This document shows positions 3,979 through 14,387 of a stretch of DNA of 64,000 nucleotides, in pieces (the stretch's first letter is position 1; each line of letters begins with the position of its first letter). The stretch lies in the NCBI GenBank assembly GCA_009773555.1, contig WSXZ01000005.1, positions 1-64,000 of the forward strand, given 5' to 3'. The stretch is from Methylocystaceae bacterium. GTDB lineage: Bacteria > Pseudomonadota > Alphaproteobacteria > Rhizobiales > Beijerinckiaceae. A program made the position numbers and the translations under genes. The notes under the pieces were generated by a model. It saw only the letters and a program-made list of their open reading frames with translations. It did no database searches and was not told where the DNA came from.

Positions 3979-3990
3979 ATGTTATAACAT
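3979..3990. promoter_or_regulatory. Zur-type operator upstream of folE operon
   Basis: This is a perfect 12-bp palindrome, ATGTTATAACAT, about 70 bases before the folE start. It matches the GTTATAAC core known for alphaproteobacterial Zur boxes. The identical 12-mer stands in front of zur at 13895-13906, which strongly suggests that both operons are repressed by Zur with zinc and induced under zinc starvation. Confidence 0.8.
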
Positions 3991-4059
3991 TTCATTCGGC
4001 CTCTTCGACGCGCAGGACCTCATGTCCGCGTCTGCAGGAGCGCCCAGAGATCCAAAGCG

Positions 4060-4677
4060 ATGGACGAAGCCGTCTTCAAGGTTGCGCGCCGGCCGCGTCC
4101 CAGTCGGGACGCGGCGGAGCAAGCCGTTCGTATCTTGATCGAATGGGCCGGCGACGATCCTGATCGGGAAGGTTTGATCGATACGCCGCGACGCGTCGTC
4201 CGCGCCTATGAGGAGTTTTTCGAAGGCTACACGTCGGATCCGCAGGCGCTGCTCGAAACGACGTTCGAAGAGACGGCCGACTATGATGAAATGGTCACGC
4301 TCCGCGACATCCGCGTAGAGTCGCATTGCGAGCATCACATTGTGCCGATTCTCGGCCGCGCGCACATCGCCTATTTGCCCGCAGGCCGGGTCATCGGCAT
4401 CAGCAAATTGGCGCGCGTCGTCGACGCTTTCGCCAAACGCCTGCAGATTCAGGAGACGCTCACGGCGCAGATCGCGGACGCCATCAACGTGGCGCTGAAA
4501 CCGCGCGGCGTCGCGGTCGTCATCGAAGCCGCGCATCACTGCATGACCACGCGCGGCGTCAAACGTCCGGGCGTATCTATGGTCACCAGCAAAATGCTCG
4601 GCGCGTTCCGAACGGATCAGGCGACGCGCCAGGAGTTCCTCGCGCTGATTGGTCGAGATCGCAGAGGTCTGGAATGA
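4060..4677 (+). CDS. folE: GTP cyclohydrolase I (FolE1)
   Basis: This 205-aa enzyme converts GTP to 7,8-dihydroneopterin triphosphate, the first step of folate/pterin synthesis, and would be cytosolic and multimeric. The catalytic domain spans nearly the whole chain. The zinc ligands of the zinc-dependent FolE1 family are present: Cys90 and His93 in SHCEHH, and Cys161 in AHHCMTTRG. It is therefore not a cysteine-less variant or FolE2. It opens an operon behind a Zur box and its stop overlaps the hisI start as ATGA. The odd point is zinc-starvation control of an enzyme that still carries zinc ligands. It may be a second copy with different metal affinity, or the client of the adjacent COG0523 protein. 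Confidence 0.92.
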
Positions 4678-5165
4678 GCGCTTCAACCAGAGAGCCCTGG
4701 ATGGCGGCGCGAAGCTCCGTAGAGTTTGTGGAGGAAGGAGCATTTCTCGCGCCGAGGTTCGATCGCGACGGTCTCATTCCTGTCGTCACGACTGATGCGC
4801 TTTCGGGCGAAGTGCTGATGCTCGGGGTCATGAACGCCGAGGCGCTGCTGCGCACGATTGAAACGCGCGAGGCGCATTATTGGAGCCGAAGCCGCGGCGC
4901 GCTCTGGCGAAAGGGCGCAACGAGCGGACTGGTTCAGAATATCGTCGAAATGCGGATCGACGACGATCAGGACGCTATCTGGCTGCGCGTCCGCGTCGAG
5001 GGGCTCGGGGCGAGTTGCCATGTCGGCTATCGCTCCTGCTTTTTTCGTTCAGTCGAGATGGGCCTTCCGATCCAGGCGCCGGTCGCACTCACCTTTGTCG
5101 AGCGCGAAAAAGTCTTCGATCCTCGAGAGATTTATGGCGACGCGCCCAATCCGACGAAGCTCTGA
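4674..5165 (+). CDS. hisI: Phosphoribosyl-AMP cyclohydrolase paralogue (HisI-like), altered zinc site
   Basis: This is a 163-aa HisI-family protein (step 3 of histidine synthesis, hydrolysis of phosphoribosyl-AMP). The family core is clear: [17 protein letters not shown] at about 69-85, and CHVGYRSCF at 115-123. Cys115 and Cys122 match two of the three cysteine ligands. The first, normally in DCDxD, is Asp97 here (DDDQD). The start is the ATG overlapping the folE stop (ATGA), so translation is coupled. A Zur-controlled paralogue with a changed metal site suggests use during zinc limitation. A housekeeping hisI or hisIE presumably lies elsewhere. Confidence 0.88.
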
Positions 5166-5210
5166 CTCGGGCGTCGACATCCACATTCCATCCGGTCCGT
5201 GAGGAGAAGC

Positions 5211-6440
5211 ATGCACACGCCATCTATTGACAATCGTCTGCCGACAACCGTGCTCTCTGGCTTTCTCGGCGCGGGAAAGACAACGCTGCTCAATCACATT
5301 CTCAACAATCGCAGCGGAAAGCGCGTCGCCGTTATCGTCAACGACATGAGCGAAGTGAACATCGACGCCGATCTCATACGAGAGGGTGACGCCAATCTGT
5401 CGCGAACGGACGAACAACTCGTCGAAATGACGAATGGCTGCATCTGCTGCACCTTGCGCAACGATCTCCTTCGCGAGGTGAGAAAGCTCGCGGAAGAAGG
5501 CCGATTTGACTATCTGTTGATTGAATCGACCGGCATCTCAGAGCCGCTACCTGTCGCTGCAACTTTCCATTTCCGCGAGGAAGACGGCGCGTCTCTTGGA
5601 GATGTGGCGCGGCTTGACACGATGGTGACGGTCGTCGACGCCGTCAATCTCCTTCGAGATTATTCGTCTAACGATTTCCTGGCTGATCGCGGCGAGTCGC
5701 TCGGGTCGGAAGATCAGCGGCCTCTCGTCAATCTGCTTGTCGAACAGATCGAATTTGCTGACGTCGTGGTCCTCAACAAGATCGACGCGGCAAGCATGAC
5801 GCAGATCGACGCGGCCCGAAAAATCATCCGCTCTCTCAACCCGGAGGCGGATATCGTCGAAACGACGATGAGCGCCGCGCCTCTCGATCGCGTTCTCGAT
5901 ACGAAGCGCTTTGATTACGAAAAGGCGCAGCAACATCCGCTCTGGTTCAAGGAGCTGTATGGCTTCTCTGACCACAAGCCGGAAACCGAACAATATGGCG
6001 TTCGAAGCTTCGTCTATCGCGAGCGCCGACCATTCCATCCCTTTAAGTTTCACAAATTCCTGAATTCTCCCTGGCCGGGGGTTATCCGCGCCAAGGGGCA
6101 TTTCTGGCTGGCGACGCGTCCCGAATGGGTCGGAGAACTCAGTCAGGCGGGCGCTCTCGTGCACAACGAAGCCATGGGCATCTGGTGGGCGGAGATTCCG
6201 CAGTCACAATGGCCGCAGGATCCCGCCTGGCGCGAGCATCTCGGCCGGAATTGGAACTCCGTTTATGGCGACCGCCGACAGGAGATCGTGTTCATCGGCT
6301 CGGACATGGATGAAAAGGCCATACGCGCCGCGCTGGACGCCTGCCTCGTTGGCGATCCCAACGCGCGAGTGCTGCCATTGAAGGCGTGGAAGACGCTGCC
6401 CGATCCGTTTCCGAAGTGGACGCGCGGGGAAGCGGCATGA
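5211..6440 (+). CDS. zigA: COG0523-family zinc GTPase, ZigA type
   Basis: This 409-aa G3E-family GTPase is a putative zinc metallochaperone. The P-loop GFLGAGKTT is near the N-terminus, [13 protein letters not shown] is the ZigA-like switch region, and GCICC carries the CxCC metal motif of the family. NKID is the guanine-specificity motif, and a CobW_C-type domain forms the C-terminal third. The ATG at 5211 is preferred over a GTG at 5199 because GAGGAG at 5201-5206 is then an ideal ribosome site. It sits between hisI and DUF1826 in a Zur-headed operon, consistent with zinc delivery to a starved enzyme. Which client it serves is inference. Confidence 0.9.
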
Positions 6441-7147
6441 CCGCGCCAGCCGCCATCGAACGCGCCGCTTCGCTTGCGCATGGCGTAGGCGACCCTCCGT
6501 CTTCCGTGCGCATGCCGAAGGGCTCTTCTTCAGTCATCGAGGGAGAGCAACCCCGCGTGTTACGGATGATCCGCCGTTCGGAGATTGATCTGGCGATCTG
6601 GCGCCGCGAACTGCCGGCGGCGCTCTCATCCTGGCTCGACAAGTCGCCGATCGGCGAATGGCCAAATCTGCGGCTCGTTCTGGCGTCCGCTGAAATAGCG
6701 AGAACGCTGCGGCGACATTTTGATGCCGCAGGCATAGAGCATTGCGATGGCCGCGCGCTGCTCATAAATGACGTGACGCGGCTCGCGACGCTTTATGCCG
6801 ACGCCTTGCGCGTGACGCATGTTCATCTCAGGCTCGAGCCCGTTCACGACAACGCCTGCACAAAATTCCATCGCGACTGCGTCATTGCGCGCCTCATCAC
6901 GACCTATCGCGGTCCCGGCACGGAATGGGTCACGGCCGAGAACGCGGCGAAAGCGCTTAGCCTGCAACATGACTACGACGGCGAGTTACTGCATGTGCCG
7001 ACCCAATCGGTCGCGATGTTCAAGGGATGCCTCGGCGGAGGGGAAGCAGGCGTTCATCATCGTTCGCCGCAAATCGCCCGCACCGGCGTGACGCGACTTT
7101 TCCTCTGCGCGAACGCTTCCAAACCTCCTGCCGACAGAGGCGCTTGA
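6437..7147 (+). CDS. DUF1826 family protein
   Basis: A 236-aa protein whose start overlaps the zigA stop as ATGA, so it is translationally coupled. The conserved centre is an H...D/H pattern ([20 protein letters not shown], about residues 131-150) followed by [13 protein letters not shown], which looks like a metal-binding beta-barrel core. DUF1826 proteins are known neighbours of zinc-regulated COG0523 genes, but their reaction is not established. The N-terminal 40 residues are variable. Membership in the zinc-starvation operon is the main clue. Confidence 0.8.
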
Positions 7148-7207
7148 ACGGCTTACGCGCCGGCGCCGCAACTTGCCAAGCATAAATCGAGCCGAGGAAG
7201 ATCGTCC

Positions 7208-7603
7208 ATGTCATTCGGGCAAAGTCCACTTGCTGAAATTGAGGGTCTCTTTTCCGAGTGGAACAAGGCTTTGGTATCCGGAGATCCGGACAAGGTTGTT
7301 CGCCTCTACGCGACAAATGCGATCCTGTTACCGACGCTCTCCAACAAGCCGCGAACCAGTCACGCGGAAATTCGTGATTATTTTGCGAAGACCTTTATGC
7401 CGTGCGGACCATCGGGGACGATTGTCAAAGCCTATGTCCGGGTATTCGCCGATGTCGCGATCTGTTCGGGCATTTTCGCCTTCACGTTTAGCGATCAGAG
7501 CGCCGCACAGGTGCGAAAATCCTTTGTTTATCGCTGGAACGGCGAGGAGTGGCTGATCGTCGAGCATCATTCCTCCCTCATGCCGGAACAACCCGTCGCT
7601 TGA
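7208..7603 (+). CDS. CaMKII-association-domain (SnoaL/NTF2-like) protein
   Basis: A 131-aa single-domain protein of the NTF2-like fold. The family signatures LYATNAILLPTLSN at about 37-50 and HHSSLMPE near the end match the CaMKII association-domain group, which forms oligomeric rings. The ATG at 7208 follows AGGAAG. It begins 60 bases after DUF1826 and is probably the last gene of the Zur-headed operon, meeting DUF1007 tail to tail. No catalytic role is known. It may bind a small ligand or scaffold an oligomer. Confidence 0.75.
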   Translation: MSFGQSPLAEIEGLFSEWNKALVSGDPDKVVRLYATNAILLPTLSNKPRTSHAEIRDYFAKTFMPCGPSGTIVKAYVRVFADVAICSGIFAFTFSDQSAAQVRKSFVYRWNGEEWLIVEHHSSLMPEQPVA

Positions 7604-7660
7604 AGGAATAGTTGGACTTCAGCCCTATGCCCTCAGCGGATCTCCCGCGCCGTTGATCGT

Positions 7661-8263
7661 TCATCGGCACATGATCGTCGCGCTTGTCGGAGGCTGTTTG
7701 CCATAGGAGGCGACAAAAGTCTCCGGCTCGACAATCTCCACCGAGCATCCCGCGTGATTTCCGGTCATCGTCACGGGATTGGCGATTTCGAGACCGAACG
7801 CCACGCCATGATCAGGATCACGGACGTCGAGCTGGAGAGGCCTGCTAAGCACAACCGGCGCTTCGAATGGCAAGGTGAATCGAAGTCTCACAATGTTTCT
7901 GGCGTCAATTTCGATCTGCACGTCTTGCGGTGGCTTGAATGCAGGCCTTCTGTCGCCGAGTCTGACCGATGTGAAGAATTCCCGTCGCGCCAGCGCCTTT
8001 AGCACATCTGCTGGCGCTGCCCAATTCTGCGGACGACGGGGATCGGCGCTTTCTCCCGCGCGCAGCCCTGTGACCGTCGAGGAATAGAACTCGTCAAACT
8101 CCCAAACGTGACGAACGGCAACCGCCCGCCGTTCACGGTCGAAGGCGACTTCGCTCCGCACGGCGACCCATATCTGAGGGCTCGCGAGCATGGGCGTCGA
8201 TGCGAAGAATCGCCAGGCCAGAATGCTGAGGCTGATGGCTCTTCGAAAGCGCAGGCTGTTCAT
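7661..8263 (-). CDS. DUF1007 family periplasmic protein
   Basis: A 200-aa protein with an N-terminal signal peptide (about residues 1-27, ending near MLASP) followed by the DUF1007 beta-rich domain (WEFDEFYSS, LEIANPVTMTG). Family members usually carry HPH just after the signal. Here that position reads SPQIWVAV, so the histidines are missing. It is the last gene of the zur-azt operon and its ATG overlaps the aztC stop (ATGA). DUF1007 is a known partner of metal ABC importers and probably acts in the periplasm. The exact role is unknown. Confidence 0.75.
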   Translation of the reverse strand: MNSLRFRRAISLSILAWRFFASTPMLASPQIWVAVRSEVAFDRERRAVAVRHVWEFDEFYSSTVTGLRAGESADPRRPQNWAAPADVLKALARREFFTSVRLGDRRPAFKPPQDVQIEIDARNIVRLRFTLPFEAPVVLSRPLQLDVRDPDHGVAFGLEIANPVTMTGNHAGCSVEIVEPETFVASYGKQPPTSATIMCR

Positions 8264-9147
8264 TTCGAAATCGCCGTAACGATCTGATCGACATTGTAGC
8301 GGATCAGACTCGCATATGTTGCAGCAGGTCCATCGGCGGCCGAGAGGGATTCGACATAGAGTTTTCCGCCGGGCTTGGCGCCCGTCGCAGCGGCGATCTG
8401 CTGGACAAGCCTCGGATCGTTTGAATTCTCGATAAAGTAGACCTTGACGCCTTCCTTTTTGATTTGGTCGATCAGTTTGGCGACATCTCCCGCCGATGCT
8501 TCCGACTCCGTCGACAATCCGATTGGCGACAGGAATGACACGCCATAGGCGCGGCTGAAGTAGCCGAAGGCGTCATGACTGGTGAGAACCTTACGCTGCT
8601 CCTTCGGAATGGCGCCGATTTGAGCCCTTGCATAGGCGTCGAGCTGTTCGAGCTGCTTCGCGTAGTTTGTGGCATTGGACCTGAATTTGGCCGCATCCTC
8701 CGGACTGGCGGCCGAAAGCGCCTTCTCGATATTATCTGCCCATACGATCACGTTACGCACGCTGTTCCAGACATGTGGATCGGTGACCGATTTGCCATCT
8801 TCCTCCATGGAGATCGTTTCGATTCCCGTCGATACGACCGTAGCCTTGCCTTTGTATCCCGACGCCTGCGCGAGTCGCTGAAACCAGGTCTCCAGCCCCT
8901 CGCCGCTCAGAAAGGCGATGTCTGCCTCTTTCAGCGCGCGTGCGTCGTCGGGCGATGGCTCGAATTCATGCGGGTCGCCATCGGGTGGAACGAGCGATTT
9001 GACGACGACCTGAGCCCCGCCGATCTGCTTTACGACATCTGCCAGGATGCTGAAGCTCGCGACCACATGCAGCGTCCGCGCGTGAGCCGGACTCGAAATG
9101 CAGATCGCCAGGGCCAGGAGCCAGCCGAGCGCTTTCGTCTGTTGCAT
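8260..9147 (-). CDS. aztC: Zinc ABC transporter substrate-binding protein (AztC/ZnuA type)
   Basis: A 295-aa cluster A-I metal-binding protein with a signal peptide at 1-23 (AHA cleavage site). Ligand positions typical of the fold are visible: His in GDPHEFEPSPDD (about 60), His in DPHVW (about 125), His in TSHDAFGYF (about 192), and a Glu/Asp region in IENSNDPR near 268. There is no His-rich acidic loop, which points to the AztC/MntA-like branch rather than classical ZnuA. It lies between the permease and DUF1007, 18 bases after aztB. Zinc is inferred from the Zur-linked context. Confidence 0.85.
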   Translation of the reverse strand: MQQTKALGWLLALAICISSPAHARTLHVVASFSILADVVKQIGGAQVVVKSLVPPDGDPHEFEPSPDDARALKEADIAFLSGEGLETWFQRLAQASGYKGKATVVSTGIETISMEEDGKSVTDPHVWNSVRNVIVWADNIEKALSAASPEDAAKFRSNATNYAKQLEQLDAYARAQIGAIPKEQRKVLTSHDAFGYFSRAYGVSFLSPIGLSTESEASAGDVAKLIDQIKKEGVKVYFIENSNDPRLVQQIAAATGAKPGGKLYVESLSAADGPAATYASLIRYNVDQIVTAISK

Positions 9148-9165
9148 GAACTCTCTCCGTAGTGA

Positions 9166-10050
9166 TCAACCCGCAAGATGTGGACGCGCAAAAACCCGGC
9201 GCAACGCGCCAAAAGGCCCCGCGAGCAGCGAAGCCACATAAATGATCGATGCAATGAGGATGATCGCCGGACCGGACGCCAGTCGCATGTGGAACGATGC
9301 GATTAGTCCGAGATATCCCGAGAGCGCCGCGGATGAAACCGCGATGACGATCATCGACGGCAGACGACGCGCCCAAAGCTGCGCGATCGCGGCAGGCAAC
9401 ATCATCATGCCGACCGCCATCAACGTGCCGAGCGCCTGAAAGCCCGCCACGAGATTAATGACCACGAGAAAAAGGAATAGAAAGTGATATGCCGCCCCGC
9501 TCTCACCGACCGCCCGCAAAAAGCCGGGATCGAAACATTCGACAACGAGCGGGCGATAGATCACCGCGAGCGTGGCGAGTGTGATCGAGGCGATGCCGCC
9601 GATAAGAAAAAGCGCGGCCGGATCGACGGCAAGGATCGTTCCAAACAGCACATGCAGAAGATCGATGTTGGAGCCGCGTAGCGAAACGATGAGGACGCCA
9701 AGCGCGAGCGATCCCAAGTAGAAGCTAGCAAAACTTGCATCTTCACGCAGTGGCGTGGTGCGACTGACAACGCCGGAGAGAAGCGCGACGGCGAGCCCCG
9801 CGACGAGGCCGCCAACTCCCATCGCGAGCGGCGACAGACTGCCAACCAGTAAGAAGGCGATTGCCGCGCCGGGCAAGATGGCGTGGCTCATGGCGTCGCC
9901 CATCAGACTCATCCGCCGAAGCATGAGCAACACGCCGATTGGCGCCGATCCGAGACTGATGGCCAGTGACGCCACCAGCGCGCGTCGCATGAACCCATAT
10001 TCGACGAAAGGCTGGATCAGCGCGTCGTAGAGGCTCAGGATCGTCGCCAT
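9166..10050 (-). CDS. aztB: Zinc ABC transporter permease (AztB/ZnuB type)
   Basis: A 294-aa ABC-3 family permease with eight or nine predicted membrane helices. The signature LMLRRMSLMGDAMSHAILPG (about residues 36-55) is the family's first conserved block. The start at 10050 is chosen because AGAGG precedes it and the longer frame would run deep into aztA. It overlaps the aztA stop by 16 bases. It should form the membrane channel with aztA and aztC. Confidence 0.88.
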   Translation of the reverse strand: MATILSLYDALIQPFVEYGFMRRALVASLAISLGSAPIGVLLMLRRMSLMGDAMSHAILPGAAIAFLLVGSLSPLAMGVGGLVAGLAVALLSGVVSRTTPLREDASFASFYLGSLALGVLIVSLRGSNIDLLHVLFGTILAVDPAALFLIGGIASITLATLAVIYRPLVVECFDPGFLRAVGESGAAYHFLFLFLVVINLVAGFQALGTLMAVGMMMLPAAIAQLWARRLPSMIVIAVSSAALSGYLGLIASFHMRLASGPAIILIASIIYVASLLAGPFGALRRVFARPHLAG

Positions 10051-10790
10051 CTTGCCTCTTCGCAGACTGACGCGTTCTCGTCCCAGCCTTCGGACATGGC
10101 GCGCGCCTTGTGGAGATAGGAAGCCGAAAGCGTCGACTCCGTAGGCCCCCAAGCGACTTTCTCACGCGCCAGCAGAAGGGTCTGCGGAAAATGGGTGCGC
10201 ACCTGATCAAGGTCATGGAGAACCGCGATGACTGTCCGCCCTTCGTTCCCCCACCGGCTGACGATCTCCAAAAGATGGGCGGTCGTTCGGCCGTCAATCG
10301 CCGTGAACGGTTCGTCGAGAATGATGGCCTCCGCATCTTGCAGCAGAAGACGCGCGAAGAGGGCGCGTTGAAATTGTCCAGCCGAAAGTGTCGCGATCGG
10401 ACGTTTCTCGAAGCCGTCAAGCTCCACGGCCGAGAGCGCCGCCCGCGCCTTCGCCGCCGTCGTCCGGGTTGCGCCTCCAAATGCGCCGGTCTCGCGCCAG
10501 GCCCCGAGCATGACCAGATCGGCGACGGCGAGCGGAAATCGCCGATCGATCTCGGCAGCCTGCGGCAAATAGCCGAAATCGTTCTGCGCCAAACGCCCGC
10601 GGTCGATCGAGCCCTCGGTGAGCGGAAGTTCGCCGACCAGCGCCTTGACCAAAGTAGATTTCCCTGCGCCGTTCGGCCCGACGATCGCGGTCAGATGGCC
10701 TTCCTCGAAAGCGCCAGAAACGTGATGAACGGCCGGATGGCGTTCATAGGCGATCGTCACGTCATGCAATCGAATTGTCGCAGTCGTCAT
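10035..10790 (-). CDS. aztA: Zinc ABC transporter ATP-binding protein (AztA/ZnuC type)
   Basis: A 251-aa ABC ATPase. Walker A GPNGAGKST is at about 35-43, the signature LSAGQFQRALFARLLL at about 134-149, and Walker B AIILDEPF follows at about 156. The N-terminal IRLHDVTIAYERHPAVHH resembles AztA. The start at 10790 overlaps the stop of the 57-aa membrane peptide as ATGA, so translation is coupled. The order ATPase, permease, binding protein follows the known azt zinc cluster, but no AztD-like chaperone is present here. Confidence 0.88.
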   Translation of the reverse strand: MTTATIRLHDVTIAYERHPAVHHVSGAFEEGHLTAIVGPNGAGKSTLVKALVGELPLTEGSIDRGRLAQNDFGYLPQAAEIDRRFPLAVADLVMLGAWRETGAFGGATRTTAAKARAALSAVELDGFEKRPIATLSAGQFQRALFARLLLQDAEAIILDEPFTAIDGRTTAHLLEIVSRWGNEGRTVIAVLHDLDQVRTHFPQTLLLAREKVAWGPTESTLSASYLHKARAMSEGWDENASVCEEARWRRS

Positions 10791-10960
10791 GGCAGAGAGA
10801 CAGCCCAGAGAATCATTGTCCAAAGCGCAATGATCAAACTTCCGGCGACGGCCAGCCGAAAGCCCCAGCTCTTTGACAACAACGACAGAATTAACGGATC
10901 GCCGGCCTCGCTTATGGAATCTGCCGGCTTCGTCGGCTTAATGACCGCTGCGCGCATCAT
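10787..10960 (-). CDS. 57-aa single-pass membrane peptide
   Basis: A small frame of 57 codons: a soluble N-terminal ~35 residues with a PTKPADSISEAGDP segment, then one strong transmembrane helix (FRLAVAGSLIIALWTMILWA) at the C-terminus. Its ATG overlaps the stop of the 89-aa protein (ATGA at 10957-10960) and its TGA overlaps the aztA start (ATGA at 10787-10790). Being locked on both sides argues strongly that it is translated. It may be an accessory subunit of the Azt importer or a tether for a GTPase. I recognise no family. Confidence 0.75.
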   Translation of the reverse strand: MMRAAVIKPTKPADSISEAGDPLILSLLSKSWGFRLAVAGSLIIALWTMILWAVSLP

Positions 10961-11226
10961 TGGAGCGCTGCCTCAAGATCGCTTAGCTGGACGTCCTTGA
11001 GGGGGCGCGGGATCTTGACGAGGCGCGTCGGTTCTCCGGCGCCCATGATGAGGATCGCCGTCTCCACGCCTGGACATCTTACATCTCTGCAATTGATTTC
11101 CGAGACGGTGACCGCGGCGTTGCAAGGAAGCGACAACGACTGGCGCACCCAGCTCTTCACACGGTCCGACGCTTCCTTGAGATCAACATTGTTGCGCCCG
11201 AGGCCGAAAACGCCCAGCGCCCTCAT
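10957..11226 (-). CDS. Small cysteine-containing protein of the zinc operon, 89 aa
   Basis: A soluble 89-aa protein. Residues 17-32 form a helix. The core [15 protein letters not shown] (42-56) carries Cys46, Cys51 and Glu43/Glu55, with another Cys at 35, a plausible metal site. It resembles short proteins often found next to COG0523 GTPases, but I cannot name the family. The ATG at 11226 overlaps the GTPase stop and its own stop overlaps the membrane peptide start. Position between a GTPase and the importer suggests a zinc shuttle or GTPase partner (inference). Confidence 0.75.
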
Positions 11227-12209
11227 GACGACATGGTCTTCTTGGCGACGCTCTTTTCGAATCCTGTGCGCAGCAAATCCTTGGGAAGATTGCGTCCGAT
11301 AAAGACAAGACGCGAGGTTCGCGGCTCATTCTCCTTCCAGGCGCGCTGATGATCGCCATCGAGGATCATATGCACGCTCTGAACGACGAAACGGTCTCGA
11401 TCCCCCGGAAACGCGATGATCCCTTTCATGCGCAAAATATCCGCGCCGAGCGTCTGAACGACGCCCTGGATCCAGGGTAGAAATACATTGGGTTCGAGAG
11501 GTTCGTTGGAGACGAGCGAGAGACTCGTTACGTGATCGTCGTGCTCATGCTCGTGGATGCCGTCCAAAAACTCCGGTTCGACTTCCAGAATTCTTTCGAG
11601 GCTGAAGGCGTTTCGATCCAGCACCTCTGTCAACGGAATATTGCAGCGCTCCGCTTCCCGAATAGCCGCCACGGGATTGATCGCGCGGATGCGCTTGCGC
11701 ACTGCGTCGAGATCCGCCGGTTCGACAAGGTCGGTCTTGTTGAGAATGACGATGTCCGCAAAGGCGATCTGCTCTTGCGCCTCATGCGCGCTATCGAGCG
11801 CCCCGGCGAGATGCTTGGCGTCGACGACGGTGACAATGGCGTCCAGGCGCGTATTTTTGCGCACGTCGTCGTCGACGAAGAAGGTCTGCGCGACGGGCGC
11901 GGGGTCGGCCAATCCCGTCGTCTCGACCAAAATTCCGTCGAAACGGCCACGCCGGAGCATCAAGCCTTCGATGATGCGGATGAGATCGCCGCGCACCGTG
12001 CAACAGATGCAGCCATTATTCATCTCGAAGATCTCCTCGTCGCTGTTGACGACGAGATCGTTGTCAATGCCCACTTCGCCGAATTCATTGACGATGACGG
12101 CGTAGCGCTTGCCGTGGTTTTCGCTCAGGACACGGTTGAGCAAAGTCGTTTTTCCCGCGCCCAGAAAGCCGGTCAACACCGTAACGGGAATCGTGGATTG
12201 CGTGGTCAT
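11223..12209 (-). CDS. COG0523-family zinc GTPase, YjiA/CobW-like
   Basis: A 328-aa G3E GTPase. Walker [10 protein letters not shown] is at 13-21, [13 protein letters not shown] at about 41-53, GCICC at about 66-70, [10 protein letters not shown] at about 95, and NKTDLV at about 157. A His-rich insert ([11 protein letters not shown], about 220-230) precedes the C-terminal CobW_C domain and probably binds zinc. The start at 12209 is chosen because it overlaps the upstream GTPase stop (ATGA). It is the second of two adjacent COG0523 genes in the zur operon and is clearly divergent from both other copies in the window, so they are not recent duplicates. Confidence 0.9.
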
Positions 12210-13432
12210 CTCGGACCTCCAATGGCTTGTGTGGCGACTTGGGGAGCGGGTTTCGTACTCGGCGCCGCGTTGTAAAACAGCACAAGAGCAGCGACCATTG
12301 TCGCAAAGCCTGCCGCAGCAATCGCGGGCCCGCGCCAACCGCGGATGACAGGCGGACGACCGGCATCATCGACAAGCGTCTCGAAAAGGCTGATCAGCGC
12401 CTTCTCGTCGTGCCCTCGACCAATGACAACCAGCTTCGTTCTGCGATCCTCGGATGGCCATGAAGCCAATTGCGTTGGCGGATGCATCAGATGCTGCACA
12501 GCGTGAACAACCATCGGCCGCTCTTGATCGTCGGAGAGTCGCACAAGGCCCTTGACGCGGAGAAGCTGTGCGCCTGCGGTCTTGACGAGAACGTTGAGGA
12601 GAAGATCGAGCGCCGCGCGCGTCATCGATCCGTCGTGCATCAGCGCCGTCGCGCGTATATCGTCGCGATGATAGGCGGGACCAGCCGACGGACCGGATCC
12701 AGCGTTGGACCGCATCAAGCGGTCAAGCGCAAGCCATCCGATAACATCGTCCGCTTGAAGATTCGGCGCGTAGCCGCCTTTGAAGCAGTGCGCAAAGAAG
12801 GCTCCGACATCCGTGCGTTCGGCGATTTCCGCGGACGGATTGATCGAAGCCAGTCGCGCTCTTAACCGCGCGACATGCTCGGGCGATGTTTCCTTCGGCA
12901 CGAGATCGGTCTTCGTCAGCAGGATCGACGAGGCGAAGGCGACCTGCTTCATCGCCTCGAAAGCGTTGTTCAACGCACCGTCTCCAGTGACGACATCGAC
13001 ACAGGCGATGATCGACGCGAGGCGAAAGCGCCGGGCGACGACATGATCGCGCATGCCGAAGGCCGGCGCGGCGCCCGGGGTCAGCGCGTTCACGATCGGC
13101 GCGGGGTCGGCAAGACCGGTGGTTTCGATCACGACACGCGAAAATGGTGGGATCTCGCCGGTCCGGCTTGCTTCGAGCAATTCGAACAGCGATACGCGAA
13201 CGTCGGACGACGCCGTGCAGCAGATGCAGCCGGTCGTTGTGATCATCATCTCACGAGAACCAGCGCGCACGAGATCGTGATCGACCGAAATGTCACCGAA
13301 CTCGTTTACGATCACGGCCGTGTCGCGGAAAGCTTCACCATCGAGGCACGCATTGAGCAGCGTGGTCTTGCCGGCGCCAAGGAAGCCGGTAACCAGCACG
13401 ACCGGCATGATTTGCGGGAGGACATCTGTCAT
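12206..13432 (-). CDS. COG0523-family GTPase with C-terminal membrane anchor
   Basis: A 408-aa G3E GTPase. GFLGAGKTT is at 15-23, [13 protein letters not shown] at about 43-55, TGCICC at about 68-73, [10 protein letters not shown] at about 104, and TKTDLVP near 175. After the CobW_C-like domain the chain continues into a basic RGWRGP turn, then a hydrophobic helix of about 20 residues ([18 protein letters not shown], ~370-388) and a 20-residue Pro-rich tail. COG0523 proteins are normally soluble, so tail anchoring is unusual. The start at 13432 overlaps the zur stop as ATGA. Confidence 0.88.
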
Positions 13433-13851
13433 CGCGCGGCGGCTTTGTCGCTGCAATTTGCGCAAACGCCTCTCACTTCCAGCGTCGTCGCGGAAGCTGA
13501 AAAGCCGCGCAGGACGAGCGCCGCAGCCACCCCTTCGCCAATAGTGGGATCGATGAACTCATCCACCGAACCGCAGCGATCGCAGATGATGAATCCGATT
13601 GCTTCTCCCTGCCTATAGGCAGGTTGGGCGTCATGGCCGCACCGGCACGCGACGAACGCATTGAGCGACTCAATGCGATGCGCCTTGCCGGCGGAGACCA
13701 GTTGTTTGAGCGCGCGGTAGACCGTCGGCGGCGCGAGTTCGACCTGGGGCCTGATGGCCGCGATGATGTCATAAGCGCCCATAGGACCAGCCGCCGACAA
13801 CAACGCCTCCATAACGTAAGCCGCATTTCGACCCTGCATTCGGTCCGTCAA
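13429..13851 (-). CDS. zur: Zinc uptake regulator Zur (Fur family)
   Basis: A Fur-family repressor with an N-terminal winged helix (PPTVYRALKQLV is the recognition region). Two CxxC pairs, ICDRCG and VCANC, would form the structural zinc site, and ACRCGHD with later histidine or acidic residues gives regulatory ligands. A longer frame to an ATG at 13923 would place the operator inside the coding region. I therefore prefer the TTG at 13851, preceded by GGGAG; an ATG at 13839 is also possible. It heads a long coupled operon with the Zur palindrome about 45 bases upstream, implying autoregulation. Confidence 0.88.
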   Translation of the reverse strand: MTDRMQGRNAAYVMEALLSAAGPMGAYDIIAAIRPQVELAPPTVYRALKQLVSAGKAHRIESLNAFVACRCGHDAQPAYRQGEAIGFIICDRCGSVDEFIDPTIGEGVAAALVLRGFSASATTLEVRGVCANCSDKAAAR

Positions 13852-13893
13852 TGCGCCGCTCCCGACGTGAATCCAGCCCCCGCTAAGGACAGA

Positions 13894-13907
13894 TATGTTA
13901 TAACATA
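13894..13907. promoter_or_regulatory. Zur-type operator upstream of zur operon
   Basis: The palindrome TATGTTATAACATA shares its 12-bp core exactly with the folE site at 3979-3990. It lies 43 bases upstream of the preferred zur start. The two sites face inward and bracket the whole zinc island. Confidence 0.85.
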
Positions 13908-13923: not shown

Positions 13924-14311
13924 GTGAAGCAGGCATTCGGCTGGGTGACGAACTACGACGTTTCAGAAGGCGACGGCTCGCCTCACTGCGGCTGGGACAT
14001 GTCGCGCGGAACGATCATCCGGATCGGAACTTTCCCGCGGAATATCCGCGGCGAAGAGCGCGCGCGGGAGAGCTATTCGAGCGGATAACGCCGGCGACGC
14101 CACGTTCCGGAAGGCCAATCTGGTCATTGCGGAGAACAAATCGGCAAGGGTGTTCGCAGTTTTATACGCCATTTGTCGCGCCCAAGGGGATTCGAACCTC
14201 TTCCCTTCAATCCGCAAGTTCTGATTTTTTTAACGACCAACCTGGTAGTCGCCACTTGGTCACCAAGAAGATTTTGGCGCAGCCCAGTCTGTCGTAAAAT
14301 ACTGATTTTAT
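13924..14311. other. Island boundary: possible gene fragment and tRNA-like 3' end
   Basis: A GTG-started 54-codon plus-strand frame at 13924-14088 looks coding-like (KQAFGWVTNYDVS, SPHCGWDM) but has a poor ribosome site, so it may be a gene fragment. A T-arm-like sequence on the minus strand at about 14175-14216 follows. The rest, up to tRNA-Thr, shows nothing I can name. Such debris beside a tRNA gene fits an old integration boundary. Confidence 0.4.
14175..14216 (-). other. tRNA-like 3' fragment
   Basis: Read on the minus strand, AGAGGTTCGAATCCCCT looks like a T-arm and is followed by TGGGCGC, like an acceptor 3' strand. No D-arm or anticodon arm can be folded upstream, so this is not a complete tRNA. 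Such fragments are typical attachment-site remnants left when an integrating element uses the 3' end of a tRNA gene. Confidence 0.4.
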
Positions 14312-14387
14312 TGGTGCCGGTTAGAGGATTCGAACCCCTGACCTACTGATTACAAATCAGTTGCTCTACCAGCTGAGCTAAACCGGC
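14312..14387 (-). tRNA. tRNA-Thr (TGT anticodon)
   Basis: A 76-base cloverleaf with encoded CCA. The acceptor GCCGGTT pairs with AACCGGC, the D-arm reads AGCTCAGCTGGTAGAGC, the anticodon loop TTTGTAA gives TGT, and the T-arm is GGGGTTCGAATCCTC. Confidence 0.95.

Follow-up and report, generated by a model that had tools for sequence, protein, structure and literature searches.

What accounts for a tightly packed set of zinc-related genes lying between two copies of the same short palindrome in the genome of a Methylocystaceae bacterium? The genes lie in the first 64,000 nucleotides of contig WSXZ01000005.1 (assembly GCA_009773555.1), a stretch referred to here as the window, which is contig C119 of a 4.0 megabase draft genome in 144 contigs. 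We consider it likely that they form a zinc-starvation island under Zur repression, which arrived by horizontal transfer and integrated next to a threonine transfer RNA gene (tRNA-Thr). Fourteen intact genes occupy positions 4060 to 13839 in two converging operons that end at 7603 (plus strand) and 7661 (minus strand). The plus operon runs folE, hisI2, zigA, a DUF1826 gene and a SnoaL/NTF2-like gene; the minus operon runs zur, the third and second genes for COG0523 GTPases (cobW3 and cobW2), genes for an 89- and a 57-amino-acid (aa) protein, aztA, aztB, aztC and a DUF1007 gene. A preliminary description of this DNA, made from its letters alone, had assigned these gene names, which family models bear out, and had described nearly all junctions as ATGA overlaps; this was generous, since eight of the 12 intra-operon junctions are four-base overlaps and the remaining four are +45, +60, -16 and +18. 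The features are as follows.

3979–3990: predicted Zur box 1 (core of GTTATGTTATAACAT), 69 base pairs (bp) before folE, fitting GTTA-N5-TAAC.
4060–4677, plus strand: folE paralogue, GTP cyclohydrolase I of the FolE1 type, with the CEHH and CM ligand region intact.
4674–5165, plus strand: hisI2, phosphoribosyl-AMP cyclohydrolase of the aspartate (Asp) class, in which DDDQD replaces DCDQD.
5211–6440, plus strand: zigA, COG0523 GTPase (NF038288, 627.8 bits, cut-off 600).
6437–7147, plus strand: DUF1826 protein, predicted 2-oxoglutarate (2OG)/Fe(II) oxygenase fold.
7208–7603, plus strand: SnoaL/NTF2-like (CaMKII association domain) protein, from family models.
7661–8263, minus strand: DUF1007 protein, from a family model.
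8260–9147, minus strand: aztC-like zinc substrate-binding protein, from family models.
9166–10050, minus strand: aztB-like permease, from family models.
10035–10790, minus strand: aztA-like ATPase, from family models.
10787–10960, minus strand: 57-aa microprotein with one helix, from a family encoded immediately upstream of aztA.
10957–11226, minus strand: 89-aa small protein, companion of the second COG0523 gene.
11223–12209, minus strand: second COG0523 GTPase, azt-linked type, with a His-rich loop.
12206–13432, minus strand: third COG0523 GTPase, with a putative C-terminal membrane helix at about residues 368–386.
13429–13839, minus strand: zur paralogue (Fur family).
13895–13906: predicted Zur box 2, 55 bp before zur.
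14312–14387, minus strand: tRNA-Thr(TGT), which bounds the island on the right and is a hotspot of insertion.

Several lines of evidence point to Zur control. The 12-mers before the two operons are identical and exact, as the preliminary description had it. Allowing up to two mismatches, the window contains two matches, against a mean of 0.15 in shuffled sequences, of which one in 100 reached two. Genome-wide there are three exact copies and no exact copy of the reversed pattern used as control, and the third lies on another contig, 21 bp before the start of a gene for a 762-aa TonB-dependent receptor. With up to two mismatches the 12-mer matched 16 places and the reversed control 23, so that only exact copies are informative; weaker genomic sites are left uncounted apart from a GTTACAATATAACAT site upstream of a second azt set. 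All three genomic sites contain GTTATGTTATAAC and fit the palindrome GTTA-N5-TAAC, the box used for Caulobacter (PMC4176598), and they resemble sites of Paracoccus denitrificans such as GTTACGATATAACAT (PMC5387054, Table 7). Among 149 genomes of the family, 26 carry the exact 12-mer and one the reversed control. Counting one locus per genome, our own included, 17 of the 26 have an azt, zur, zigA or receptor homologue no more than about 1.5 kilobases (kb) from the 12-mer. Thirteen box regions viewed more widely include six with box and receptor (L136–L139, L141, L145), three with box, zigA and DUF1826 (L132–L134) and one with box and zur/aztC (L146). The nine of 26 loci with none of the query-gene homologues nearby, and the three wider regions (L140, L147, L148) with no such genes near the box, speak against the assignment. 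On balance the comparative support for the 12-mer as a Zur box is strong, and binding of Zur is predicted. The proposal of a Zur-controlled zinc-starvation module thus gains support from the fit of the boxes, the Fur-family Zur encoded in one of the operons, and the zinc-type genes beside box loci elsewhere.

The setting of the island indicates how it may have arrived. Homology on its right side restarts at 14299–14312, the end of tRNA-Thr, in all 12 genus relatives fetched, and in none of the 12 did blastn match the island beside tRNA-Thr, the one place in them where it was sought. These 12 were drawn from 33 other matching genomes in a search of 39 genomes of the genus, our own included, and some of their stretches end shortly past the tRNA (L303, L306, L307). 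L298 and L299 have the left flank (window positions 1 to about 3095), L305 has it up to about 2211, and L308 shows it briefly; in all four, DNA of other lengths fills the interval. Two relatives carry a different element at the same tRNA-Thr (L300, 201–1744; L309, 966–1012) where the tRNA's first 47 bases are repeated with 91% identity; in L300 a frame next to this repeat was taken for a tyrosine integrase from its sequence. Since other elements sit at this tRNA-Thr, with the repeat in two relatives and the integrase-like frame in one, the gene is an integration hotspot, and the combination expected of a tRNA-borne island, a tRNA border and absence at the site in relatives, was found with respect to all 12. 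This history is made less secure by two negatives: no attachment (att) repeat of the tRNA was found on the island's left side, and there is no integrase among its 14 genes. A weak 22-base copy of part of tRNA-Thr (82%) at 14185–14206, 138 bases away and near the island's right edge, is possibly an old integration scar.

The distribution of the members is uneven. DUF1826 is found in six of the 149 family genomes, our own included, and in none of the five other genus members of that sample; the 89-aa family is found in 67, and the matches to the third GTPase listed from other family genomes do not exceed 47% identity. Related zinc clusters occur on plasmids of Paracoccus MA, Gluconobacter, Acetobacter, Thioclava, Phaeobacter, Gemmobacter, Bosea and Phyllobacterium. 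In the plasmid search with HisI, 40 of 751 records were listed, and of the 16 listed rows with a query coverage of 93% or more, eight were fetched. On the Phyllobacterium plasmid, typed as conjugative, zur, cobW3, cobW2 and the 89-aa gene stand in island order. The scattering of members among relatives, which had been named in advance as telling against the module, is therefore partly true, as the rarity of DUF1826 illustrates, yet subsets still recur linked on plasmids and in other genomes, and so the module is better described as modular and mobile than as fixed.

The suggestion that the island is self-contained and complete is not supported. The receptor with the third box is unlinked; a second Zur-like protein is encoded on contig C140 (70 bits to island Zur), a second aztABC with a GTTA-N5-TAAC site upstream on C15, and a housekeeping folE–hisI pair on C62; and family-model searches found no AztD gene among the 14. 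Given these sets elsewhere, the island amounts to a second, dispensable set with new members. The genome has five FolE1-type genes in all (contigs C11, C72, C86, C62 and C119), and a short DUF1826 fragment at C49:19086–19298 is perhaps a remnant of another zinc cluster.

How would such a second set act? We propose that as zinc falls, Zur (the island copy, the core copy or both) would leave the two identical boxes, and both operons together with the unlinked TonB receptor would be expressed. The minus operon would rebuild zinc import through an Azt-like ATP-binding cassette (ABC) importer, the membrane microprotein and the DUF1007 protein, and would also make two COG0523 GTPases and their small companion. 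The plus operon would allocate and spare zinc, by means of ZigA, next to a FolE whose zinc ligands are intact, and of a HisI2 with Asp in place of one of the three cysteines (Cys) that hold the catalytic zinc.

Whether HisI2 spares zinc turns on a single residue. The protein satisfies the HisI models (Pfam 98.5 bits, cut-off 27; NCBIfam 146.4, cut-off 126), and on alignment with the M. thermoautotrophicum enzyme (1zps) it has Asp at the Cys of the DCD motif. The three-cysteine catalytic zinc site is incomplete in this alignment, with the first Cys replaced and the other two present. In plant HISN2 the catalytic zinc is held by Cys126, Cys142 and Cys149, Cys126 occupying the position equivalent to the HisI2 Asp, and the same paper, citing D'Ordine et al., describes the HisI zinc ligands as universally conserved (PMC8102479). 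The core HisI of this genome has DCD, while DDD is found in all nine zinc-island HisI that were aligned and in the HisI of Pseudomonas matsuisoli (L217), which lies near zur and zigA. Upstream of all eight plasmid hisI copies, no farther than about 1 kb, there is a match to an 18-mer Zur box, in a scan at up to four mismatches that had no shuffled control. A review lists hisI2 among the zinc-responsive genes of P. protegens (PMC6103462), and our literature searches, for which subscription papers were mostly outside reach, found no title or abstract announcing a HisI without this Cys.

The genomic context of the two HisI types is also informative. A scan of named genomes gave the best 80 HisI loci under patterns favouring DDD, so that the 80 of 80 with DDD is not a frequency. 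HisI copies were counted in 43 of these 80 genomes, 17 with two or more and 26 with one; the other 37 loci were mostly cut by contig ends, and four full-length ones (L159, L162, L186, L198) were also left out. Of the 17 genomes with at least two HisI, 14 have zinc genes near the Asp copy, against none of the 26 with one (Fisher test, 9e-9, kinship ignored), with the qualification that many of the genomes are metagenome assemblies in which 'one HisI' may miss a copy. Counted as zinc genes were zur, zigA, DUF1826, azt, the 89-aa gene and the receptor, a list fixed after viewing the HisI neighbourhoods, and COG0523 genes of the second and third types were left uncounted. Partner HisI copies kept DCD in all 16 examined. 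In a tree of 106 HisI the two classes part on one branch with support 79, from few columns and with long branches. The Asp class thus looks like an old subfamily, apparently sufficient by itself in many genomes and retained close to zinc genes where the cysteine class is also present. The island protein is most likely a low-zinc isozyme, with a presumably lower need for zinc, that takes over from core HisI.

A simpler account is that the duplicates (folE, hisI2, zur and azt) merely raise copy number in low zinc, in which case HisI2 would be a zinc enzyme and its Asp a neutral lineage mark; we regard this as a real possibility, if a doubtful one. Haas et al. 2009 suggested copy number as the role of paralogues whose zinc residues are retained, which by their account is the case for the HisI paralogues in Zur clusters (PMC2770081). 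HisI2 keeps two Cys, His and an Asp triad, and the Asp class is the sole HisI found in 26 of the 43 genomes, in none of them near the counted zinc genes. On the other hand, the catalytic zinc is bound by the very residue that is substituted (PMC8102479), and where the classes coexist it is the Asp class that sits near zinc genes in most genomes. Certain features of the Asp class as a whole also weigh against a zinc-sparing role. The class looks like one old split and therefore need not have arisen as a zinc adaptation; it retains the other two Cys, His and the Asp triad, and so may still bind zinc; and some members carry a Cys four residues later. Moreover, a third-type COG0523 gene lies near the sole HisI in five of 26 genomes, and the contrast between genomes with several HisI and those with one thus depends on excluding that type. 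A more far-reaching reading, which we hold to be somewhat less likely than not, is that bacteria have two HisI classes, of which the Asp class would need no zinc at the catalytic site and, in genomes with both, would serve as a Zur-controlled backup, that the microprotein would be an Azt subunit or regulator, and that the DUF1826 protein would act as a zinc-starvation oxygenase.

Other HisI-like genes turned up in the same searches. Two plasmid genes annotated as phosphoribosyl-AMP cyclohydrolase (L152, L153) are not HisI by alignment, have no Pfam match and were rejected. A Methylobacterium aquaticum plasmid carries two DCD hisI genes inside a mercury-resistance region (L157, 8022–8438 and 11893–12300), perhaps as backup for a mercury-sensitive enzyme, and an Okeania genome gave four HisI matches, with two Asp-class copies on one locus, L223.

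Is zinc the metal to which the island responds? Island Zur exceeds the FUR model cut-off (24.8 bits, cut-off 23.1), and its best NCBIfam model is NF008646, where at 66.9 bits it falls below the Zur equivalog cut-off of 167. Its two structural Cys pairs, CDRC and CANC, have aligned counterparts in E. coli Zur (4mtd). The sensing-site His and Cys of E. coli Zur align as well, and the third ligand, His96, corresponds to Tyr with a His nearby, a replacement that detracts from the case for a zinc sensor. For the importer genes, the AztA, AztB and AztC models are the best NCBIfam matches and all fall below their cut-offs (200.7 of 220, 263 of 280 and 275.4 of 350 bits), so that the earlier term 'Azt-type' is better given as Azt-like. 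It is improbable that the island answers another metal (manganese, cobalt or iron) through a Fur-family protein other than Zur: the importer does score under the Azt cut-offs, manganese-type binding-protein models also score, and COG0523 proteins may differ in metal (PMC2770081), but both the top-scoring regulator model and a good structure match point to Zur, the importer's best NCBIfam models are those of Azt zinc transporters, ZigA is above its cut-off, and the box fits published Zur sites. A decaying remnant that has lost regulation and expression, as a hotspot location with no integrase gene of its own and the DUF1826 fragment elsewhere in the genome might suggest, is more improbable still, with all 14 frames intact and tightly coupled and both boxes exact palindromes.

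The 57-aa and 89-aa proteins had been listed as two tiny unknown proteins; tiny they are, and both have relatives elsewhere. For the former, 17 of 21 azt loci, the window included, have a one-helix open reading frame (ORF) that terminates at the aztA start or close to it and encodes 39–67 residues in 14 loci and 78–98 in three, depending on the start taken. The helix has an invariant Trp (17 of 17, the LW motif having been spotted on part of the same loci before counting), and four of the proteins have His-rich N-termini (L120, L121, L142, L143). The ORF was not found in four of the 21 loci, those of Phyllobacterium, Shinella, Paracoccus alcaliphilus and Bradyrhizobium. Left out of the 21 were L106, cut before the aztA start, and L223, which has a distant aztA (34% identity) without the ORF and whose inclusion gives 17 of 22. 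In a control scan of 30 loci, a one-helix ORF lay upstream of aztA in nine of 10 cases, as against zigA 0/27, cobW3 0/27, cobW2 1/27, hisI 0/20, zur 3/18, aztB 1/12, folE 1/12 and DUF1826 0/10; the row for aztC (9/13) was set aside because its upstream gene, aztB, itself encodes a membrane protein. As to the last gene of this operon, the DUF1007 family includes ZevA of a zinc system. None of the papers searched joins DUF1007, zinc and Zur, and two join DUF1007 and zinc. On a Thioclava plasmid (L318, 813–2771) a HupE/UreJ-type gene, a hypothetical gene and a DUF1007 gene precede an azt-like operon.

The remaining proteins bear on how zinc might be allocated. All three COG0523 proteins have cobW and CobW_C domains and the GCICC motif. 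The last 45 residues of the third GTPase include a stretch of 19 with a Kyte-Doolittle value of 1.97; no comparable C-terminal membrane helix was present in the homologues examined, none of whose tails reaches 1.6. A membrane tail as a trait of the family was rejected, the sole flagged row of 60 being an internal stretch (these are match rows, some with two per protein and some of the second GTPase type). The tail may tether the GTPase to the membrane near the importer, or may be a chance fusion. In the 89-aa family C46, C51, P52, E55 and T56 are invariant in 27 aligned sequences, and 19 of the 29 best-scoring loci have a cobW2-type gene no more than about 1.5 kb away. A model of the 89-aa protein with a predicted local distance difference test score (pLDDT) of 86.1 had no PDB match under E 0.001. 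One homologue on a Phyllobacterium plasmid (L316, 12248–12535) is annotated as nitrate reductase, apparently a misannotation.

Island FolE scores 222.6 bits with TIGR00063 (cut-off 181.6) and keeps the Cys/His ligand region. The retention of its zinc ligands fits less well with an island that spares zinc. A relevant example comes from Cupriavidus, where a Zur-controlled CobW1 binds the neighbouring FolE_IB2 when zinc is present, and the authors suggest that it possibly holds FolE back (PMC10882993). On the simplest reading ZigA would favour zinc delivery to FolE while HisI2 would remove a zinc client.

An AlphaFold model of the DUF1826 protein made from 10 sequences (pLDDT 84.4) gave 142 Foldseek matches in the PDB at E ≤ 0.001, headed by 2OG/Fe oxygenases; those of the 50 matches shown that could be recognised by title are 2OG oxygenases. 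The 50 matches shown have probabilities of 0.99–1.00 and template modelling scores (TM-scores) of at most 0.49 by query length and 0.54 by target length, the former counting against the fold assignment. A candidate HxD...H triad appears at the sequence level, as FHxD in 16 of 21 sequences and a later His in all 21. A 2OG/Fe(II) oxygenase is the most likely candidate identity, and the protein would then act by the corresponding chemistry. DUF1826 was already known in Zur clusters (PMC2770081); among the literature passages naming it none mentions an oxygenase, and one ties it to predicted succinylglutamate desuccinylases.

An important consequence concerns histidine synthesis, which is regarded as zinc-bound on the strength of the statement that the HisI ligands are conserved universally (PMC8102479). 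With a natural HisI class that lacks one of these ligands, zinc sparing in a core pathway could be tested directly and at little cost. Two little-explained companions of zinc clusters, DUF1826 and the small ORF preceding aztA, gain testable roles, and fitness under zinc starvation appears as a mobile trait, carried at a tRNA hotspot and on plasmids.

The cluster type itself has been known since 2009; what this analysis adds is an Asp class of HisI, a microprotein linked to azt, a predicted fold for DUF1826 and the location at a tRNA hotspot. In the Zur-regulated yciC clusters of Haas et al. 2009 (PMC2770081), as in the island, COG0523 genes are accompanied by zur, zinc transport, DUF1826 and additional copies of zinc enzymes, HisI among them. 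The island differs from them in that its FolE is FolE1, not FolE2, and that it has three COG0523 genes, of which one encodes a membrane tail; and whereas their paralogue analysis, which covers gamma- and betaproteobacteria, finds the HisI zinc residues kept, the island HisI has Asp for one Cys. The Paracoccus AztABCD system (PMC5387054) and the island share an ABC importer with a Zur-type box, and the island's best models are AztA, AztB and AztC; unlike that system, the island lies under all three cut-offs, has no AztD and places a microprotein before aztA. The cobW1 operon of Cupriavidus metallidurans likewise sets a Zur-controlled COG0523 gene beside a spare folE and other spare enzymes, but its spare FolE is of the metal-promiscuous IB type (FolE_IB2), whereas the island has FolE1 with an intact zinc ligand region (PMC10882993). 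Also related are the alphaproteobacterial plasmid clusters, which share with the island subsets of hisI2, zigA, DUF1826, zur, azt, cobW2 and the 89-aa gene, although none of the fetched stretches unites all 14 genes as the island does.

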